Assembly (NCBI GenBank): GCA_902571095.1
Contig: CACGAV010000009.1
Coordinates: forward strand, 1-44,291
Direction of reading: 5' to 3'
Source of the DNA: an uncultured Pelagibacteraceae bacterium
GTDB taxonomy: Bacteria > Pseudomonadota > Alphaproteobacteria > Pelagibacterales > Pelagibacteraceae
Length of the DNA: 44,291 bases
In this document: positions 28,527 to 34,252 of the stretch, piece after piece
How the letters are laid out: each line of letters opens with the position of its first letter
Numbering within the stretch: position 1 is the first letter of the stretch
Made by a program: the position numbers and the translations under genes
Notes under the pieces: model-generated
Seen by the model: only the letters and a program-made list of their open reading frames with translations
Databases searched by the model: none
What the model was told of the DNA's origin: nothing

Positions 28527-28548
28527 AGAAATGTACAGGATTTGTTCT

Positions 28549-29223
28549 ATGCTTACAAAAAAACAAAAAAACTTATTGTTATTTATTAATAAAAAAATAA
28601 GATCTTCAGGTGTTTCCCCCTCGTACGAGGAAATGAAAAATTCACTCAACCTTAAGTCGAAATCTGGAATTCATCGCTTAATATCTGCATTAGAAGAAAG
28701 AGGTTTTATTAAAAGACTTGCTCATAAGGCAAGAGCACTTGAAGTGGTAAAGTTGCCAGAAAATGCTAGTGCACACGATTTATTTAACAGTTTTACACCA
28801 AGTGTTATAAAAGGTGGTTTAGATAAAAGCTCAAGTCAGTCTAGCAAAGTTTCAATTCTTGGATCTATAGCGGCAGGAACCCCTATAGAAGCAATTCAAC
28901 AAGAAGTTGATAAAATCAACTTACCTGCTGATTTTAATAAAAACGACGATCATTTTGGATTAAGAGTAAAAGGTGACTCTATGATCGAAGCAGGCATTAA
29001 TGATGGGGACACGGTTATAATTAAAAAAAGTTCTAATGCTGACAATGGACAAATAGCCGTAGTTTTGATCGATAATGAAGAGGCAACTCTAAAAAGAATT
29101 AGAAAAAAAGGAAATACCATTGCTCTAGAAAGTGCTAATAAGAAATACGATACTAAAATATACGCAGCGAAAAGAATTAAGATTCAAGGAAAATTAGTTT
29201 CTTTATATAGAAACTTCAATTAA
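28549..29223 (+). CDS. lexA: LexA repressor
   Basis: This 224-residue protein represses the SOS regulon and cuts itself when RecA is activated by damaged DNA. I choose the ATG at 28549 (MLTKKQKNLL), where alphaproteobacterial LexA proteins start; the ATG at 28531 would add six residues and lies too near the transcript start. The winged-helix DNA reader spans about 1-70 (SKSGIHRLISALEERGFI). The cleavage bond is A109-G110 (SIAAGTP), the catalytic serine is S144 (KGDSM) and the lysine is K182 (ATLKR). It follows trpC and is likely transcribed from its own SOS-controlled promoter plus read-through. gltX follows after 19 bases. Confidence 0.97.
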   Translation: MLTKKQKNLLLFINKKIRSSGVSPSYEEMKNSLNLKSKSGIHRLISALEERGFIKRLAHKARALEVVKLPENASAHDLFNSFTPSVIKGGLDKSSSQSSKVSILGSIAAGTPIEAIQQEVDKINLPADFNKNDDHFGLRVKGDSMIEAGINDGDTVIIKKSSNADNGQIAVVLIDNEEATLKRIRKKGNTIALESANKKYDTKIYAAKRIKIQGKLVSLYRNFN

Positions 29224-29242
29224 AATAGTTTAATTTCAACTC

Positions 29243-30634
29243 ATGGCTTTTATTTGTAGGTTTGCGCCCTCACCCACAGGACCATTACACATTGGCGGTG
29301 TTAGAACAGCTTTGTTTAATTGGTTATTGGCAAAAAAAAATAAAGGAAAATTTTATCTTAGAATAGAAGATACGGATAAAGAAAGATCTAAAGATGAGTT
29401 TAAAAAGCAAATAATTGAATCTCTATCATGGGTTGGGGTTAATCATGATGATAAAGAAATTATTCAGTCAAAAAATATTGATAAACATAAAGAGATCGCT
29501 GAAGAGCTTTTAAAAAAAGGATTTGCATATAAATGTTATTGCTCTGAGGAAGAAATTAAAGAACAAAAAGAAAAATGTAAGAAACAAGGTATCCCTTATG
29601 TTTACAATAGAAAATGGAGAGATTCAAAAAATCTTCAGGTTCCAAAAAATGTAAAGCCAGTCATAAGGTTTAAAAGTAAAATTTCAGGAAATACTGTTAT
29701 TAAGGATTTGGTTCAGGGAGATATTAATATTTCTAATTCAATTATTGAAGATTTTGTTATATTAAGACAAGATGGTTCGCCAACCTATCAACTATCTGCA
29801 ACTGTAGACGATCATTCAATGAAAGTTTCACATGTAATAAGGGGTGATGATCATAAAATTAATACATTCAAACAAAAGCAAATTTATGAGGCAATGAACT
29901 GGAATGTTCCTCAATTTGCACACATACCTTTAATACACAGTGAAAAAGGATCTAAGCTTTCTAAAAGAGATAAATCTTCGACAATTGATGATTACGTTAA
30001 AATCGGAATTTTACCAGATGCACTTCGAAATTATTTGCTACGATTAGGTTGGGCATATAAAGATAAGGAAATCTTTTCTTTAGATGAAAGTATTAATCTT
30101 TTTGATTTAAAAGGTGTGGGAAAATCTCCATCAAAACTTGACATGTCTAGAATACTCTCTCTGAATGAACATTATATTAAAAATATAGATGAAAAAATTC
30201 TTTTTGAATTTTTAAAAAATTATGCTCAAAATTACAAAAAATCTATTAACCCATCCAAAGAAAGCGCAATTATAAAATCTTTAAACTTCTTGAAAAATAA
30301 AGCAAAAACACTTGATGATATCTATCAAAATTCCCAATATATACTCAATGATGAGGTAAAAATTACTCCAGAAGATATTAAACTTTTAGATACAAATTCT
30401 AAGAAAATTATAAGTGAGTTTGTTGAAGAATTTAAAAATATGAAATCTCCAAATAAAGAAAGTCTTGAAAGATTAGTTAATGACCTAATTAATAAACACA
30501 AAACTAACTTCAAAGGAGTTGGACAACCATTAAGAATTGCTTTAGTAGGTTCTAGATTTGGTCCTGGAATTTATAACATTGTCCTCTCGCTCACAAAAGA
30601 TGAGGTAGTAAAAAGAATTTCTAAAATTAACTAA
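29243..30634 (+). CDS. gltX: Glutamyl-tRNA synthetase
   Basis: This 463-residue class I synthetase charges tRNA with glutamate. The HIGH motif appears as FAPSPTGPLHIGG (7-19), and the KMSKS motif as GSKLSKRDKSST (about 235-246). The RIEDTDKERS segment and the GDDHKINTFKQ segment are also typical. The all-helical anticodon-binding domain occupies the last third, ending in RFGPGIYNIV. Only 19 bases separate it from lexA, so it may be partly induced with SOS. lexA followed by gltX, with or without comEC between, is a known alphaproteobacterial arrangement. Whether the genome has GlnRS or uses transamidation cannot be told from here. Confidence 0.96.
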   Translation: MAFICRFAPSPTGPLHIGGVRTALFNWLLAKKNKGKFYLRIEDTDKERSKDEFKKQIIESLSWVGVNHDDKEIIQSKNIDKHKEIAEELLKKGFAYKCYCSEEEIKEQKEKCKKQGIPYVYNRKWRDSKNLQVPKNVKPVIRFKSKISGNTVIKDLVQGDINISNSIIEDFVILRQDGSPTYQLSATVDDHSMKVSHVIRGDDHKINTFKQKQIYEAMNWNVPQFAHIPLIHSEKGSKLSKRDKSSTIDDYVKIGILPDALRNYLLRLGWAYKDKEIFSLDESINLFDLKGVGKSPSKLDMSRILSLNEHYIKNIDEKILFEFLKNYAQNYKKSINPSKESAIIKSLNFLKNKAKTLDDIYQNSQYILNDEVKITPEDIKLLDTNSKKIISEFVEEFKNMKSPNKESLERLVNDLINKHKTNFKGVGQPLRIALVGSRFGPGIYNIVLSLTKDEVVKRISKIN

Positions 30635-30653
30635 GTTCTTTTACCAATTAAAC

Positions 30654-30698
30654 TTGACGATCTTCTATCTTACCTTTATAAAAGAACAAATCAAGAAC
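30654..30698 (+). promoter_or_regulatory. umuDC promoter and SOS box
   Basis: TTGACG (30654-30659), a 17-base spacer and TATAAA (30677-30682) make one of the best housekeeping promoters in the window. The 15-mer GAACAAATCAAGAAC at 30684-30698 fits GAAC-N7-GAAC exactly, as at lexA. It begins one base after the -10 and covers the expected transcript start near 30689. The leader would be only about 14 bases before the ATG at 30703. LexA repression by occlusion of the start site is the natural reading. Confidence 0.9.
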
Positions 30699-30702
30699 AT
30701 TT

Positions 30703-31086
30703 ATGAAGCTTAAGTTACCATTTTATATTCACAAAGTTGGCGCTGGCTTCCCTTCGCCTGCTACCGATTATATCGAGGACGATGTAGATTTAAACACGCA
30801 TTTAATAAAAAATGCACCGGCAACATTTATAATAAGAGTACAAGGTAAATCTATGTCCAATGTTGGAATCTACGACGGAGATCTGTTAATCGTTGACAGA
30901 AGTATTAATCCAAAAAGTTCATCAACAGTAATAGCAAATGTAAATGAAGAATTAGTAGTAAAAACTTTCATAAAAGGAAAAAATAATAATTACCTGACCT
31001 CTGGTCCTAATAAAATTGAATTAAGTGAAAATCCTAACGTAATAATTTGGGGAGTAGTTACTTATGTCATCCATAAATTACAATAA
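30703..31086 (+). CDS. umuD: UmuD-like self-cleaving polymerase V subunit
   Basis: This 127-residue S24-family protein becomes active for error-prone repair after RecA-stimulated self-cleavage. The alignment to E. coli UmuD is clear from GFPSPATDYIEDDVDLN onward. The catalytic serine is S50 (QGKSM) and the lysine K87 (LVVKTF), each ten positions earlier than E. coli S60 and K97. The cut site would be A14-G15, where E. coli has Cys-Gly. The removable N-terminal arm is therefore only about 14 residues, against 24. It overlaps umuC by 23 bases and is preceded by a promoter with an SOS box. Confidence 0.93.
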   Translation: MKLKLPFYIHKVGAGFPSPATDYIEDDVDLNTHLIKNAPATFIIRVQGKSMSNVGIYDGDLLIVDRSINPKSSSTVIANVNEELVVKTFIKGKNNNYLTSGPNKIELSENPNVIIWGVVTYVIHKLQ

Positions 31087-32344
31087 AAAAAAAATTGCTC
31101 TTGTAGACTGCAATTCTTTCTATGTTTCTTGTGAAAGATTATTTAATCCAAAAATACAGCACAAGCCGGTTGTAGTTTTATCAAACAATGACGGATGTGT
31201 AATTTCCAGATCCAATGAAGCAAAAACATTAGGAATAAAAATGGGAGAACCATATTTTAAAGTGAAAGAATTAATAAAAAAAAATAATGTTCAAATTTTT
31301 TCATCAAATTATGCCCTGTACGGCGACTTATCTAGAAGAGTAATGAGAGTTTTAAAAACTTTTTCAATAAATGTCGAAATTTACTCTATTGATGAAGCGT
31401 TTATAGATTTATCTTTTTTAAAAGAAGAGGATGTTGAAAACTATGGGAAAGAGATAAGAAAAAAAGTTTTGAAATGGACAGGAATACCTACAAGTGTTGG
31501 GATTTCAACAACAAAAACCCTTAGTAAAGTGGCAAATCATATTGCTAAAAGAGAGAAAACAGGCGTTATGTACTTAAACAAAAACATTGATGAAAGGTTA
31601 AAAAAATTTCCTATTCAAGATGTTTGGGGTGTGGGTAGACAATTGTCTAAGCTATATATTAAAAATGGTATACAAAATGCCTATCAATTAAAATCTGTTT
31701 CTAATACGTGGGTAAAAAAAAGTACAAATGTTCTCGGTTCAAGAACAGCAATGGAATTACGCGGTATAACTTGTATTCGACTAGAACTTCATGAAGAGAA
31801 AAGAAAAAATTGTTGTGTATCAAGATCTTTTGGAAAAAGAATAACGGACTTACAAAAATTAGAAGAAGCTGTATCAACTTACTGTTTAAACGCTGCTGAA
31901 AAAATAAGGGGCGATGATCAAATATGTAGAGGGTTAACGGTATTTATTAGAACTAGCCCGTTTAATAAAAATAGAAAATATTACTCAAATTCACAAACTA
32001 TTGAGCTGCCGATTGCTACAAATGATAGTATTGAACTTGTTAAATACGCAAGAAAGATTTTAAAAACCATGTATAAGCCCGGATATCAGTATCAAAAAGC
32101 TGGAATTATTTTATCTAAACTAAAAGATGCAGATAAAAATGAGACAAACCTATTAACACCACTTATGGATGATAGATCTAAAACGTTAATGAAGGCCATT
32201 GATTATACAAATAATAAATATGGCAGACATGCAATTACAGTAGCTAGTGCGGGAATACACAAAGGCTGGAAGATGAGAAGAGAACATTCTTCAAAAATAG
32301 ATACTGCTTCTTTTAATTATTTACCTAAAGTAAGTGCGTCATAA
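31064..32344 (+). CDS. umuC: Y-family DNA polymerase V catalytic subunit
   Basis: This 426-residue translesion polymerase copies damaged templates. Catalytic acidic residues lie in IALVDCNSFYVSCERLF (first Asp) and SIDEAFIDLS (Asp-Glu). VVVLSNNDGCVISRSNEAK is the UmuC-specific form of the finger region. The helix-hairpin-helix region is near VWGVGRQLSKLYIKNGI, and the little-finger domain covers about 240-350. The C-terminal tail matches UmuC (ASAGIHKGWKMRREHSS). The segment where E. coli has the clamp-binding QLNLF reads ETNLLTPLMDD and is weak. The start at 31064, inside umuD, is the only ATG upstream of the first catalytic Asp. Confidence 0.95.
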   Translation: MSSINYNKKKIALVDCNSFYVSCERLFNPKIQHKPVVVLSNNDGCVISRSNEAKTLGIKMGEPYFKVKELIKKNNVQIFSSNYALYGDLSRRVMRVLKTFSINVEIYSIDEAFIDLSFLKEEDVENYGKEIRKKVLKWTGIPTSVGISTTKTLSKVANHIAKREKTGVMYLNKNIDERLKKFPIQDVWGVGRQLSKLYIKNGIQNAYQLKSVSNTWVKKSTNVLGSRTAMELRGITCIRLELHEEKRKNCCVSRSFGKRITDLQKLEEAVSTYCLNAAEKIRGDDQICRGLTVFIRTSPFNKNRKYYSNSQTIELPIATNDSIELVKYARKILKTMYKPGYQYQKAGIILSKLKDADKNETNLLTPLMDDRSKTLMKAIDYTNNKYGRHAITVASAGIHKGWKMRREHSSKIDTASFNYLPKVSAS

Positions 32345-32395: not shown

Positions 32396-33316
32396 ATGGA
32401 TAAAAATATTTATGTGATACATGAAAATGATGAGTGGCTTATTCCGTTAAGGGAAAGTTTTAAGAAGATTAAAGCTCCATTCAAAGAGTGGCATATGGAT
32501 AAGGAGAGCTTCGATTTTAAAAAAACACCGCCTAATGGAATTTTTTACAACAGAATGAGTGCGAGTGCACATTCGCGGGGTCACAGATACGCTCCAGAAA
32601 ATACAAAAGACGTACTTGGTTGGTTAGAAAAAGATAAAAAAAGAGTTGTAAACAATTCTAGAGCTTTAGAATTAGAGATAAGTAAACAAAAACAATATGA
32701 GGAATTAAAAAAATTCAATATAAATTTTCCAGAAACTTATTACGCTAAAAACAAAAATGAGATCCTAGAAAAATCAAAAAATTTTAAAAAACCATTTATT
32801 ACAAAACATAATAGAGGCGGAAGAGGTCTAGGAGTAAAATATTTTAAAAATACAGGTGAACTTGAAAAATATATTAATGGAGATTTTGAAGACTCAATTG
32901 ATGGAATTACTTTGTTACAAGAATATGTGGTGTCTGATCCGAAAATAATTACAAGAGTGGAGTTTGTAAATGGAAAGTTTTTATATGCTGTACAAGTTGA
33001 TGCTAGTGATGGTTTTGAACTATGTCCTGCTGATGCCTGTAATGTTGAAGAAAAGTTTTGTCCAACAAATCCTGATGGAAATAAATTTATGATAGTAAAA
33101 GATTATAAAAATCTAGAACTTAAAAAATACCAAGATTTACTTAAATCAAATGGTATTGAAATAGCAGGTATTGAATATATTAAAGGTAATGATGGAAAAC
33201 ATTATACTTATGATATCAATACAAACACAAATTATAATTCAATTGCAGAGAGAAAAAGTAATTTAAAAGGAATGGATTCTATTGCATCATTTCTTTATAA
33301 TGAATTAAGAAAATAA
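32396..33316 (+). CDS. ATP-grasp ligase-like protein, RimK-related, function unknown
   Basis: This 306-residue cytoplasmic protein has the RimK/glutathione-synthetase type ATP-grasp fold. An N-terminal pre-ATP-grasp part (about 1-100) opens with IYVIHENDEW. The nucleotide-binding glycine-rich loop is FITKHNRGGRGLGVKYF (about 134-150). The adenine-binding and metal-binding region follows, with LLQEYV, ITRVEFVNGKFLYAVQVD and, near the end, YDINTNTNYNSIAE in place of the usual E-x-N metal motif. Such enzymes join a carboxylate to an amine using ATP, but the substrates are unknown here. It stands alone between umuC and a TPP riboswitch, with its own promoter and no evident pathway partner. Confidence 0.85.
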   Translation: MDKNIYVIHENDEWLIPLRESFKKIKAPFKEWHMDKESFDFKKTPPNGIFYNRMSASAHSRGHRYAPENTKDVLGWLEKDKKRVVNNSRALELEISKQKQYEELKKFNINFPETYYAKNKNEILEKSKNFKKPFITKHNRGGRGLGVKYFKNTGELEKYINGDFEDSIDGITLLQEYVVSDPKIITRVEFVNGKFLYAVQVDASDGFELCPADACNVEEKFCPTNPDGNKFMIVKDYKNLELKKYQDLLKSNGIEIAGIEYIKGNDGKHYTYDINTNTNYNSIAERKSNLKGMDSIASFLYNELRK

Positions 33317-33320
33317 TTTA

Positions 33321-33380
33321 AGGGGTGTCTATCAAGACTGAGATTATACCCTAGAACCTGACCGGTAATTCAGTAAGGGA
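33321..33380 (+). promoter_or_regulatory. TPP riboswitch (THI element), compact form
   Basis: The hallmark THI-box elements are in order. GGGT (33323-33326) pairs with ACCC (33348-33351). A three-pair hairpin GTC/GAC (33327-33329 with 33336-33338) closes a six-base loop. CTGAGA is at 33338-33343, CCTGA at 33357-33361, and the 3' arm GTAAGGGA at 33373-33380. It senses thiamine pyrophosphate. At about 60 bases it is short; the outer P1 stem is not obvious and the P4/P5 arm is trimmed. The AGGGA of the 3' arm is the only candidate ribosome site and lies two bases before the ATG at 33383. Ligand binding would thus block translation directly. Confidence 0.92.
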
Positions 33381-33382
33381 AT

Positions 33383-34252
33383 ATGAAAATAAAATTAGCG
33401 CTTGAATGGTTTATAAATCCTGACCACCTACCCTTCATTGTAGGTTTAGATAAAGGATTGTATAAAAAAAATAATATCGAATTAGAAATTATTGAACCTG
33501 AAGGTCATTATGATGGTTTTAAAGAACTTGCGCAAAATAATATACAATTAGCAACAAACGAACCATTACACTTAATTGAAAAATACCAAAAAAATATTTG
33601 TTCTATTGGAAATTTTTTTGAAACAAATGGAGGTATTATATTCACAACTAAAGGTTATGAAAATTTGATCAATGGAAAAGAAATTAAAATTACTTCGCCA
33701 GTAAGTAACCCTGTTACAGATAAAATAGCTAACGATATTATTCAAAGACATTTAAAAAAAATTAATAAAACCAATAAAAATATAAAAATTGTAGCTAATG
33801 ATTTTTATCATATCAAACATCTAAAAACCGGATTCGATGCTGCATGGTTATGTTTTGAAAATTTTGAAGGCGTTGAGTCTAAACTAGAAGGTTTAGAAGT
33901 TAAAAAATTATACTTAGAAGATGTTCAAATACCAAATTTTTGTGCGCTCGATGTATTTGTATCTAAAACCTTTGCTAATGGTAATAAGAATTTAATAGAT
34001 GACTTTAAATCTATGGCACAAGAAAGTATCAAAATTTTAAGCAGAGACTTAGACTATTCAAAATCTTCTTATTATGCATATACAAAAACGAAACCCTCTC
34101 CTTTGATGGATAATATTATTAAAGATACAATACACAGATTTAAAAACCCTTTTGATAATTCAAAAAATAAGTGGAAAAATTTACACCAATACGTAGTAAA
34201 TCAAAAAATTTCAGATATATCTGATTTACAATACGCAGATATGTTTGTTTAA
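33383..34252 (+). CDS. THI5/NMT1/ThiY-family pyrimidine-precursor protein without signal peptide
   Basis: This 289-residue protein belongs to the NMT1/THI5 family, which includes the bacterial ThiY binding protein for thiamine pyrimidine precursors and the yeast Thi5 enzyme that makes HMP-phosphate. The family opening is clear: LALEWFINPDHLPFIVGLDKG, then ATNEPLHLIE and the central GFDAAWLCFENFEG. ThiY proteins are exported, yet here the sequence starts directly in the first beta strand with no signal peptide. The riboswitch just upstream leaves no room for one. No ThiX/ThiZ transporter genes are adjacent. The CCCFC motif of Thi5 is not seen; only one Cys lies in the matching area. Thiamine role is firm, exact activity is not. 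Confidence 0.85.
   Translation: MKIKLALEWFINPDHLPFIVGLDKGLYKKNNIELEIIEPEGHYDGFKELAQNNIQLATNEPLHLIEKYQKNICSIGNFFETNGGIIFTTKGYENLINGKEIKITSPVSNPVTDKIANDIIQRHLKKINKTNKNIKIVANDFYHIKHLKTGFDAAWLCFENFEGVESKLEGLEVKKLYLEDVQIPNFCALDVFVSKTFANGNKNLIDDFKSMAQESIKILSRDLDYSKSSYYAYTKTKPSPLMDNIIKDTIHRFKNPFDNSKNKWKNLHQYVVNQKISDISDLQYADMFV

Follow-up and report, generated by a model that had tools for sequence, protein, structure and literature searches.

Genomic context and recognition of the element

The window analysed here (44,291 nucleotides from an uncultured Pelagibacteraceae bacterium) carries a THI-box element on the forward strand, squeezed between two genes of the same orientation. An ATP-grasp gene (32396..33316, +) ends 5 nt before it, and behind it begins the presumably regulated gene, which encodes an NMT1/THI5-like protein of 289 aa (33383..34252, +; PF09084, 7.5e-25). 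The element fills the 66-nt gap between the ATP-grasp stop (33316) and the NMT1/THI5-like ATG (33383). As this gap (33317-33382) is almost entirely riboswitch, the promoter has to be located within the upstream gene or ahead of it. Further upstream, at 28531-32344, lexA, gltX (identified by its sequence), a gene for a UmuD-like peptidase and umuC follow one another, an order conserved in the relatives read. The row provides this streamlined genome with a set for SOS mutagenesis.

Within 33321-33380 the motifs GGGGUG, CUGAGA, ACCC, GAACCUG and AAGGGA follow one another, and a permissive-threshold cmscan matched RF00059 at 33311-33398 (40.2 bits, E 9.9e-7 per 301 bases), with helices P2, P3 and P4 all present and in order in the RF00059 feature test. 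The score lies below the RF00059 gathering score of 54.3; with the curated Rfam thresholds no match was obtained anywhere in the window, and in the permissive scan no family besides RF00059 exceeded 16 bits at the element. It is the sole credible RF00059 match in the 901,930-base genome (30 contigs), where the runner-up reached 17.7 bits. Across the family, 83/99 genomes have an RF00059 match at E<=1, and in 16 of the 99 it exceeds the gathering score. The E-value of 1e-6 together with this conservation rules out a chance resemblance, so that the THI box which the earlier note had proposed at 33321-33380 is real.

Parts of the element

The variant THI box as a whole spans 33322..33380 (+) and consists of P2, P3 and the P4/P5 arm. 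R1, a covariance model trained on 50 distinct leaders of the variant type, matches it with 81.1 bits, a score to which the window sequence contributed as one of the rows that built R1. The 5' strand of P2, GGGGU (33322..33326, +), pairs with 33346 and 33349-33351, and the corresponding columns (1-5 with 35-40 of A1) are paired in 100% of cells. A short P3 hairpin, GUCU-AUCA-AGAC (33327..33338, +; A1 columns 6-9/24-27), is paired in 94.3% of cells with two-sided changes in 2 of its 4 pairs. It is followed by CUGAGA (33338..33343, +), the T-loop motif with a described role in pyrimidine binding (PMC9544697, PMC7824784, PMC3764141), which is invariant in 50/50 distinct leaders. The remodelled 22-nt P4/P5 arm, CCUGACCGGUAAUUCAGUAAGG (33357..33378, +), has CCU/AGG as P4 and a UAAU loop, and is closed at the canonical J4/5 position by a covarying pair, A33361-U33374 (33361..33374, +). 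AAGGGA (33375..33380, +) is at once the 3' strand of P4 and a Shine-Dalgarno-like site 2 bases before ATG.

Over the 50 distinct leaders, which come from 10 genera, all 16 pairs together are paired in 93.3% of cells, compared with 26-65% when the partner strand is slid. Invariant in these 22-nt-arm leaders are GGGG, CUGAGA, AACCUG before and in P4, the L5 UAAU and the last A. The k-junction adenines that precede P4 and close AGGGA (A34, A35 and A59 of the first A1 row) are also invariant and, in our own mapping, would correspond to A56/A84 of E. coli. The invariance of the pyrimidine pocket, AACCUG, L5 and the last A argues for a working pocket. Local folding energy in the window is ordinary (z -0.26). 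A C.A mismatch in the middle of P5 (33363, 33372) is kept in 42/50 distinct leaders and is U-A in the other 8/50; perhaps it is a functional site.

A remodelled P4/P5 arm without the CG dinucleotide

Arm classes were read from the 83 hits in the family that scored 28 bits or more. The arm measures 22 nt in 61 elements, 23 nt in 7 (genus g5), 24 nt in 4 (genus g12) and the canonical 26 nt in 11. While the canonical arm reads CCUG-AU-P5-L5-P5'-CG-N-AGG, the 22-nt arm reads CCUG-W-CYGG-UAAU-UCAG-W-R-AGG, with the 5' W replaced by G in 4/50 leaders. Compared with the canonical arm it has lost one base of J4/5 per strand, two bases of L5 and the CG dinucleotide. This CG is absent from all 61 22-nt and all 7 23-nt arms and is kept in 15/83 elements (11 canonical, 4 24-nt). 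Since the arm is common to 61/83 elements, a sequencing error or decay confined to the window genome is ruled out. The two W positions pair with each other in all 50 distinct leaders (A-U 28, U-A 18, G.U 4, unpaired 0, counts that are inflated by related sequences), and on the ThiV tree the G.U form appears separately in g2, g6 and g4. RNAalifold and RNAfold of the window sequence alone both predict A33361-U33374 within the same P4/P5 fold. The remodelled arm is thus a real structure.

By our alignment the lost CG would be C77-G78 of E. coli thiM. In the E. coli structure these two nucleotides touch the pyrophosphate of TPP (PMC7824784); they have been assigned to a 'GCG' pyrophosphate-binding motif (PMC9544697) and to the most conserved set together with G60, U59/A80 and the J3-2 T-loop (PMC3764141), and an analysis of 11,056 sequences reports ligand-pocket and k-junction nucleotides as the most conserved (PMC4005666). 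In canonical RNAs affinity falls by at least 2-4 orders when the charge of the ligand tail is reduced (PMC7824784).

In the loci read outside the family the dinucleotide is rarely lost. A phylum control of 110 searched genomes, 49 of them matching, supplied 70 loci (30 high-scoring loci from as many genomes plus the 40 rows with the lowest scores), of which 69 keep CG (52 by pattern, 17 of the 18 others by eye and cmscan); the exception (L294) looks truncated. All 24 loci fetched from the sister family (f2) keep CG, as do 7 of 8 weak R1 matches fetched from other Alphaproteobacteria, the eighth (L344) having UG. A loose arm pattern run over 21 genomes was too unspecific.

The earlier note had described all core elements as fitting in about 60 bases. 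The compactness holds, the completeness does not, as the pyrophosphate-contacting CG of J5/4 is gone. That note had named as evidence against its claim a covariance alignment in which the ligand-binding core is lacking, and this was found in part: the pyrimidine pocket is intact, while C77, G78 and J4/5 are deleted. With the CG/J4/5 half deleted and the pyrimidine pocket kept, the term TPP riboswitch states descent and not ligand.

Loss of P1

The outer P1 stem had been called not evident, and this extends to the whole 22-nt class. In the window, cmscan pairs 3/5 P1 positions, with an A inserted. Across the 22-nt class the mean P1 run is 2.39, against 2.42 (sd 0.17) in shuffles with G.U allowed; in a second test 95/300 shuffles were as good with G.U and 12/300 with Watson-Crick pairs only, a marginal result which leaves room for a few members with a weak P1. 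In the window's genus a five-pair run, absent from the window, occurs in the three ThiV-type members. P1 is clear in the 26-nt class (mean run 5.91 vs 2.62 in shuffles) and also exceeds shuffles in the 23-nt (5.14 vs 3.11) and 24-nt classes (4.5 vs 2.98). Loss of P1 therefore accompanies the 22-nt arm, the only class without the helix. With both P1 and CG missing, an ordinary TPP riboswitch is ruled out as a full description. An AU-only helix of 33312-33317 with 33392-33397, a candidate for a displaced P1, has 6-7 pairs in 7/9 NMT1-type leaders; it is broken in G095 and G049, and the other NMT1-type leaders are close relatives.

The translation start

AGGGA (33376-33380) ends 2 bases upstream of the ATG at 33383, and AAGGGA is the only Shine-Dalgarno-like site, in agreement with the earlier note. 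Among the window genes surveyed (24-40 kb), 4/18, the element's gene included, have a Shine-Dalgarno-like 4-mer within 20 nt upstream, which makes AAGGGA a rarity here. As most nearby genes (14/18) do without such a site, Shine-Dalgarno pairing may be less important than the structure around the start codon. The gap from AGG to the start is 2-8 nt in 60/60 22-nt-arm leaders measured, and with AAGGGA lying inside the 3' strand of P4 this bears out the suggestion that aptamer and expression platform are the same RNA. This sharing of AGGGA between aptamer and translation site is not peculiar to the variant, since canonical 26-nt SAR11 forms have it too, with a gap of 9-10 nt. Folding computation finds AGGGA mostly paired even before any ligand is bound (class mean of 0.39 unpaired). 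There is no terminator: 33322-33382 runs into the ATG without a U-run.

Genes behind the riboswitch

The NMT1/THI5-like protein has 4nmy_A as its best solved relative (E 3e-6), and it matches THI5/THI13 chains over its N-terminal part at E 0.017-0.12. For a candidate role as THI5-type HMP-P synthase the phmmer alignment gives a mixed picture: a THI5 histidine pairs with a histidine of the window gene product that all nine aligned relatives share, and an Asn stands where THI5 has Lys; we take these THI5 positions to be catalytic residues. The AlphaFold model of the product has a mean pLDDT of 40.1 (3 rows). No hydrophobic leader or signal sequence was seen in the protein sequence, and no ABC partner genes of its own adjoin 33383-34252. 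The protein may serve HMP supply or salvage inside the cell.

The gene behind the element is exchangeable. In the window's genus (g1) 13 elements precede an NMT1-like gene (9), ThiV (3) or TenA (1). The six g1 genomes read share a common locus, lexA-gltX-umuD-umuC-(ATP-grasp)-riboswitch-X-lpxB, in which X is ThiV in G072 and G033, TenA in G077 and the NMT1-like gene in G041, G049 and the window. G077 and G049 lack the ATP-grasp gene, and an extra ORF separates X from lpxB in G049. The TenA at the riboswitch position of G077 (L333:5073-5738) scores above the cut-off of TIGR04306 (thiaminase II), and G077 has another TenA-like frame outside this locus. ThiV, TenA and the NMT1-like gene at one locus suggest different routes to the thiamin pyrimidine behind one sensor. 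Among 21 g1 genomes a 291-aa NMT1-like frame occurs in 11, a 475/483-aa ThiV in 6 and both in none (chance 210/54264, about 0.004, calculated by hand on incomplete genomes); the two are mutually exclusive in this genus. ThiC is absent from 21/21 g1 genomes (control 13/14), and TenA is present in 13/21.

CG-bearing or canonical arms of g7, g9 and g12 also precede ThiV homologues. Two 24-nt, CG-bearing elements of g12 (L014, L022) stand before a protein of 223-225 aa, and two canonical, CG-bearing ones (L005, L011) before a 254-aa protein with a short-chain-dehydrogenase-like N-terminus; both are possibly unrecognised thiamin-regulated genes.

Distribution and age

R1 finds the element in 81/98 family genomes and in 37/40 high-quality ones, and with either RF00059 or R1 a single credible element was found per genome. 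Its scores separate the arm classes (22-nt 68-88 bits, 23-nt 48-56, 24-nt 41-46, canonical 27-36), the 22-nt rows themselves having built the model. Three genomes, each at least 94% complete (G001, G064, G069), lack the element by both models. Wider scans, which score only the best candidates per genome, gave matches at E<=1e-6 in 33/289 class genomes (two Pelagibacteraceae at 88 and 81.1 bits, the rest at most 44.6), and at E<=1e-9 the window's genome alone matched among 398 phylum genomes. Thus, R1 recovered no comparable variant outside SAR11 among the best candidates of these 289 class and 398 phylum genomes. The arm pattern occurs in at least 120 stretches; the 80 listed titles are all Pelagibacteraceae, Pelagibacterales or Candidatus Pelagibacter, and CUGAGA lies upstream of the arm in all 120 stretches among the matches listed. 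Viral relatives were found neither with the arm pattern (0 viral contigs) nor in a protein search (0).

A tree of 68 ThiV-type proteins represents 68 of the 83 rows; left out were four leaders (two of g12, two canonical), the nine in front of NMT1-like genes, the one in front of TenA and that of G002, which lies at a contig end. A branch supported at 100/100 places the 22-/23-nt forms opposite the 26-/24-nt forms, with the caveats that long branches meet there and that the root serves for drawing only. Canonical arms in the sister family indicate that the remodelled arm is probably derived.

A possible off-switch for pyrimidine acquisition

Few bacteria are as abundant as SAR11, which rely on vitamin B1 pyrimidine precursors dissolved in their surroundings. 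Tentatively, we favour reading the element as a SAR11-specific, streamlined TPP-riboswitch descendant that switches off, at the level of translation, genes by which the cell acquires the pyrimidine half of thiamin. A ligand with a 4-aminopyrimidine ring would sit in the CUGAGA/P2-P3 pocket and bridge to the P4/P5 arm; once bound it would stabilise P4, whose 3' strand AAGGGA lies by the start codon, so that initiation would be blocked. The lack of P1 means that neither a P1/anti-P1 rearrangement nor a separate expression platform is available. The regulated genes (ThiV, TenA, NMT1-like) all serve pyrimidine acquisition, which speaks for an off-switch. What the data show is the sequence and its fold, conservation and covariation, the missing P1 and CG and the gene context, and we infer ligand binding, the direction of switching and ribosomal use of AAGGGA. 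In our view TPP remains the likeliest ligand, for which a remodelled and more continuous P4/P5 would make up for the missing C77/G78 contacts. Canonical-arm elements of sister genera preceding homologous ThiV favour such an unchanged ligand, and uptake physiology has been called consistent with TPP feedback on thiV (PMC11452348). Against this off-switch stand the ordinary folding energy and the AGGGA that is mostly paired without ligand. With C77/G78 absent and the charge of the tail worth at least 2-4 orders of affinity, a TPP site would also need new contacts.

Alternatively, the same off-switch could have acquired an altered or relaxed specificity and respond to a pathway compound without pyrophosphate (HMP, AmMP, thiamin or TMP), the pyrophosphate sensor being deleted and only the pyrimidine pocket kept. 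This is possible, if not what we would expect. C77-G78 are missing in 61 + 7 of 83 family elements as opposed to 1/70 in the phylum sample, and the loss falls on one side of the 100/100 ThiV-tree branch, which makes it old and kept. All three kinds of gene behind the element handle the pyrimidine in a genus lacking ThiC and often possessing TenA, in contrast to the sister family, where at the one locus read gene by gene a canonical riboswitch precedes ThiB. The 2024 study of SAR11 uptake itself calls the ligand specificity of the thiV riboswitch unconfirmed (PMC11452348). However, gene context does not separate ligands, given the ThiV genes behind CG-bearing arms of g7, g9 and g12, and a small ligand would offer fewer contacts to hold P4. 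A sharper form, in which main-clade SAR11 THI boxes are a variant class directly sensing a pyrophosphate-free thiamin precursor (HMP or a close relative), appears rather unlikely; deletion of both P1 and the pyrophosphate sensor would fit bacteria that import or salvage that very precursor.

It is improbable that the element has decayed to a ligand-unresponsive fixed hairpin which merely sets the translation rate. The losses of P1 and of the pyrophosphate loop and the ordinary folding energy would agree with decay, uptake experiments have suggested a constitutively expressed transporter (PMC11452348), and well-conserved predicted TPP aptamers of diatoms proved unresponsive (PMC9544697). But the CUGAGA pocket, P2, L5 and the joint are invariant in 50/50 leaders from 10 genera, none of which a fixed hairpin needs, and the element stays when the gene behind it is exchanged. 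A register shift, in which an ON state with CUGA paired to UCAG would leave AAGGGA free and compete with the OFF state formed by P4, is very hard to credit: the window's ON state lies only 1.1 kcal/mol above OFF and CUG and CAG are invariant, yet over the class the ON-OFF difference ranges from 0.9 to 8.4 kcal/mol, the ON state of U-A members has just 3 pairs, and invariant bases give no covariation test.

If the preferred off-switch still binds TPP, it would represent a second way for an RNA to hold pyrophosphate, in about 60 nt and without P1; if it does not, it would be a new specificity within a textbook riboswitch class. In either case, three different genes exchanged behind one fixed riboswitch amount to a sensor that outlives its gene.

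Comparison with known systems

A SAR11 thiV 'TPP riboswitch', of the same gene family and lineage as the window-type elements, is already in print (Meyer 2009, PMC2704228; McRose 2014, PMC4260697; PMC11452348), and P. ubique RNAs, TPP included, were noted to tend to be short (PMC2704228). The literature passages covered describe neither the loss of the pyrophosphate contacts nor that of P1. The SAR11 element resembles the TPP riboswitch (RF00059; E. coli thiM, tbpA) in P2, P3, the CUGAGA T-loop, AACCUG, P4 with AGGGA, the L5 UAAU and the thiamin-related genes downstream, and differs from it in the lack of P1, the J4/5 internal loop and the pyrophosphate-contacting CG and in its score below the gathering cut-off. 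In E. coli tbpA, exchange between P1 and anti-P1 hides or shows the Shine-Dalgarno sequence (PMC11487190). Such an exchange cannot work in the P1-less SAR11 element, and a ligand stabilising P4 would be the simplest mechanism.

The HMP-PP riboswitch (thiS motif; PMC6478431), likewise compact, is a thiamin-precursor sensor whose aptamer is embedded in an intrinsic terminator, whereas the SAR11 element has no terminator and is directly followed by the start codon. Placing the Shine-Dalgarno sequence within the aptamer is a trait shared with other translational riboswitches whose fold and ligand are unrelated to those of the SAR11 element. The SAM-V and SAM-II riboswitches are built in this way, and in the translational preQ1 riboswitch, too, the Shine-Dalgarno sequence is part of the aptamer (PMC10622847).
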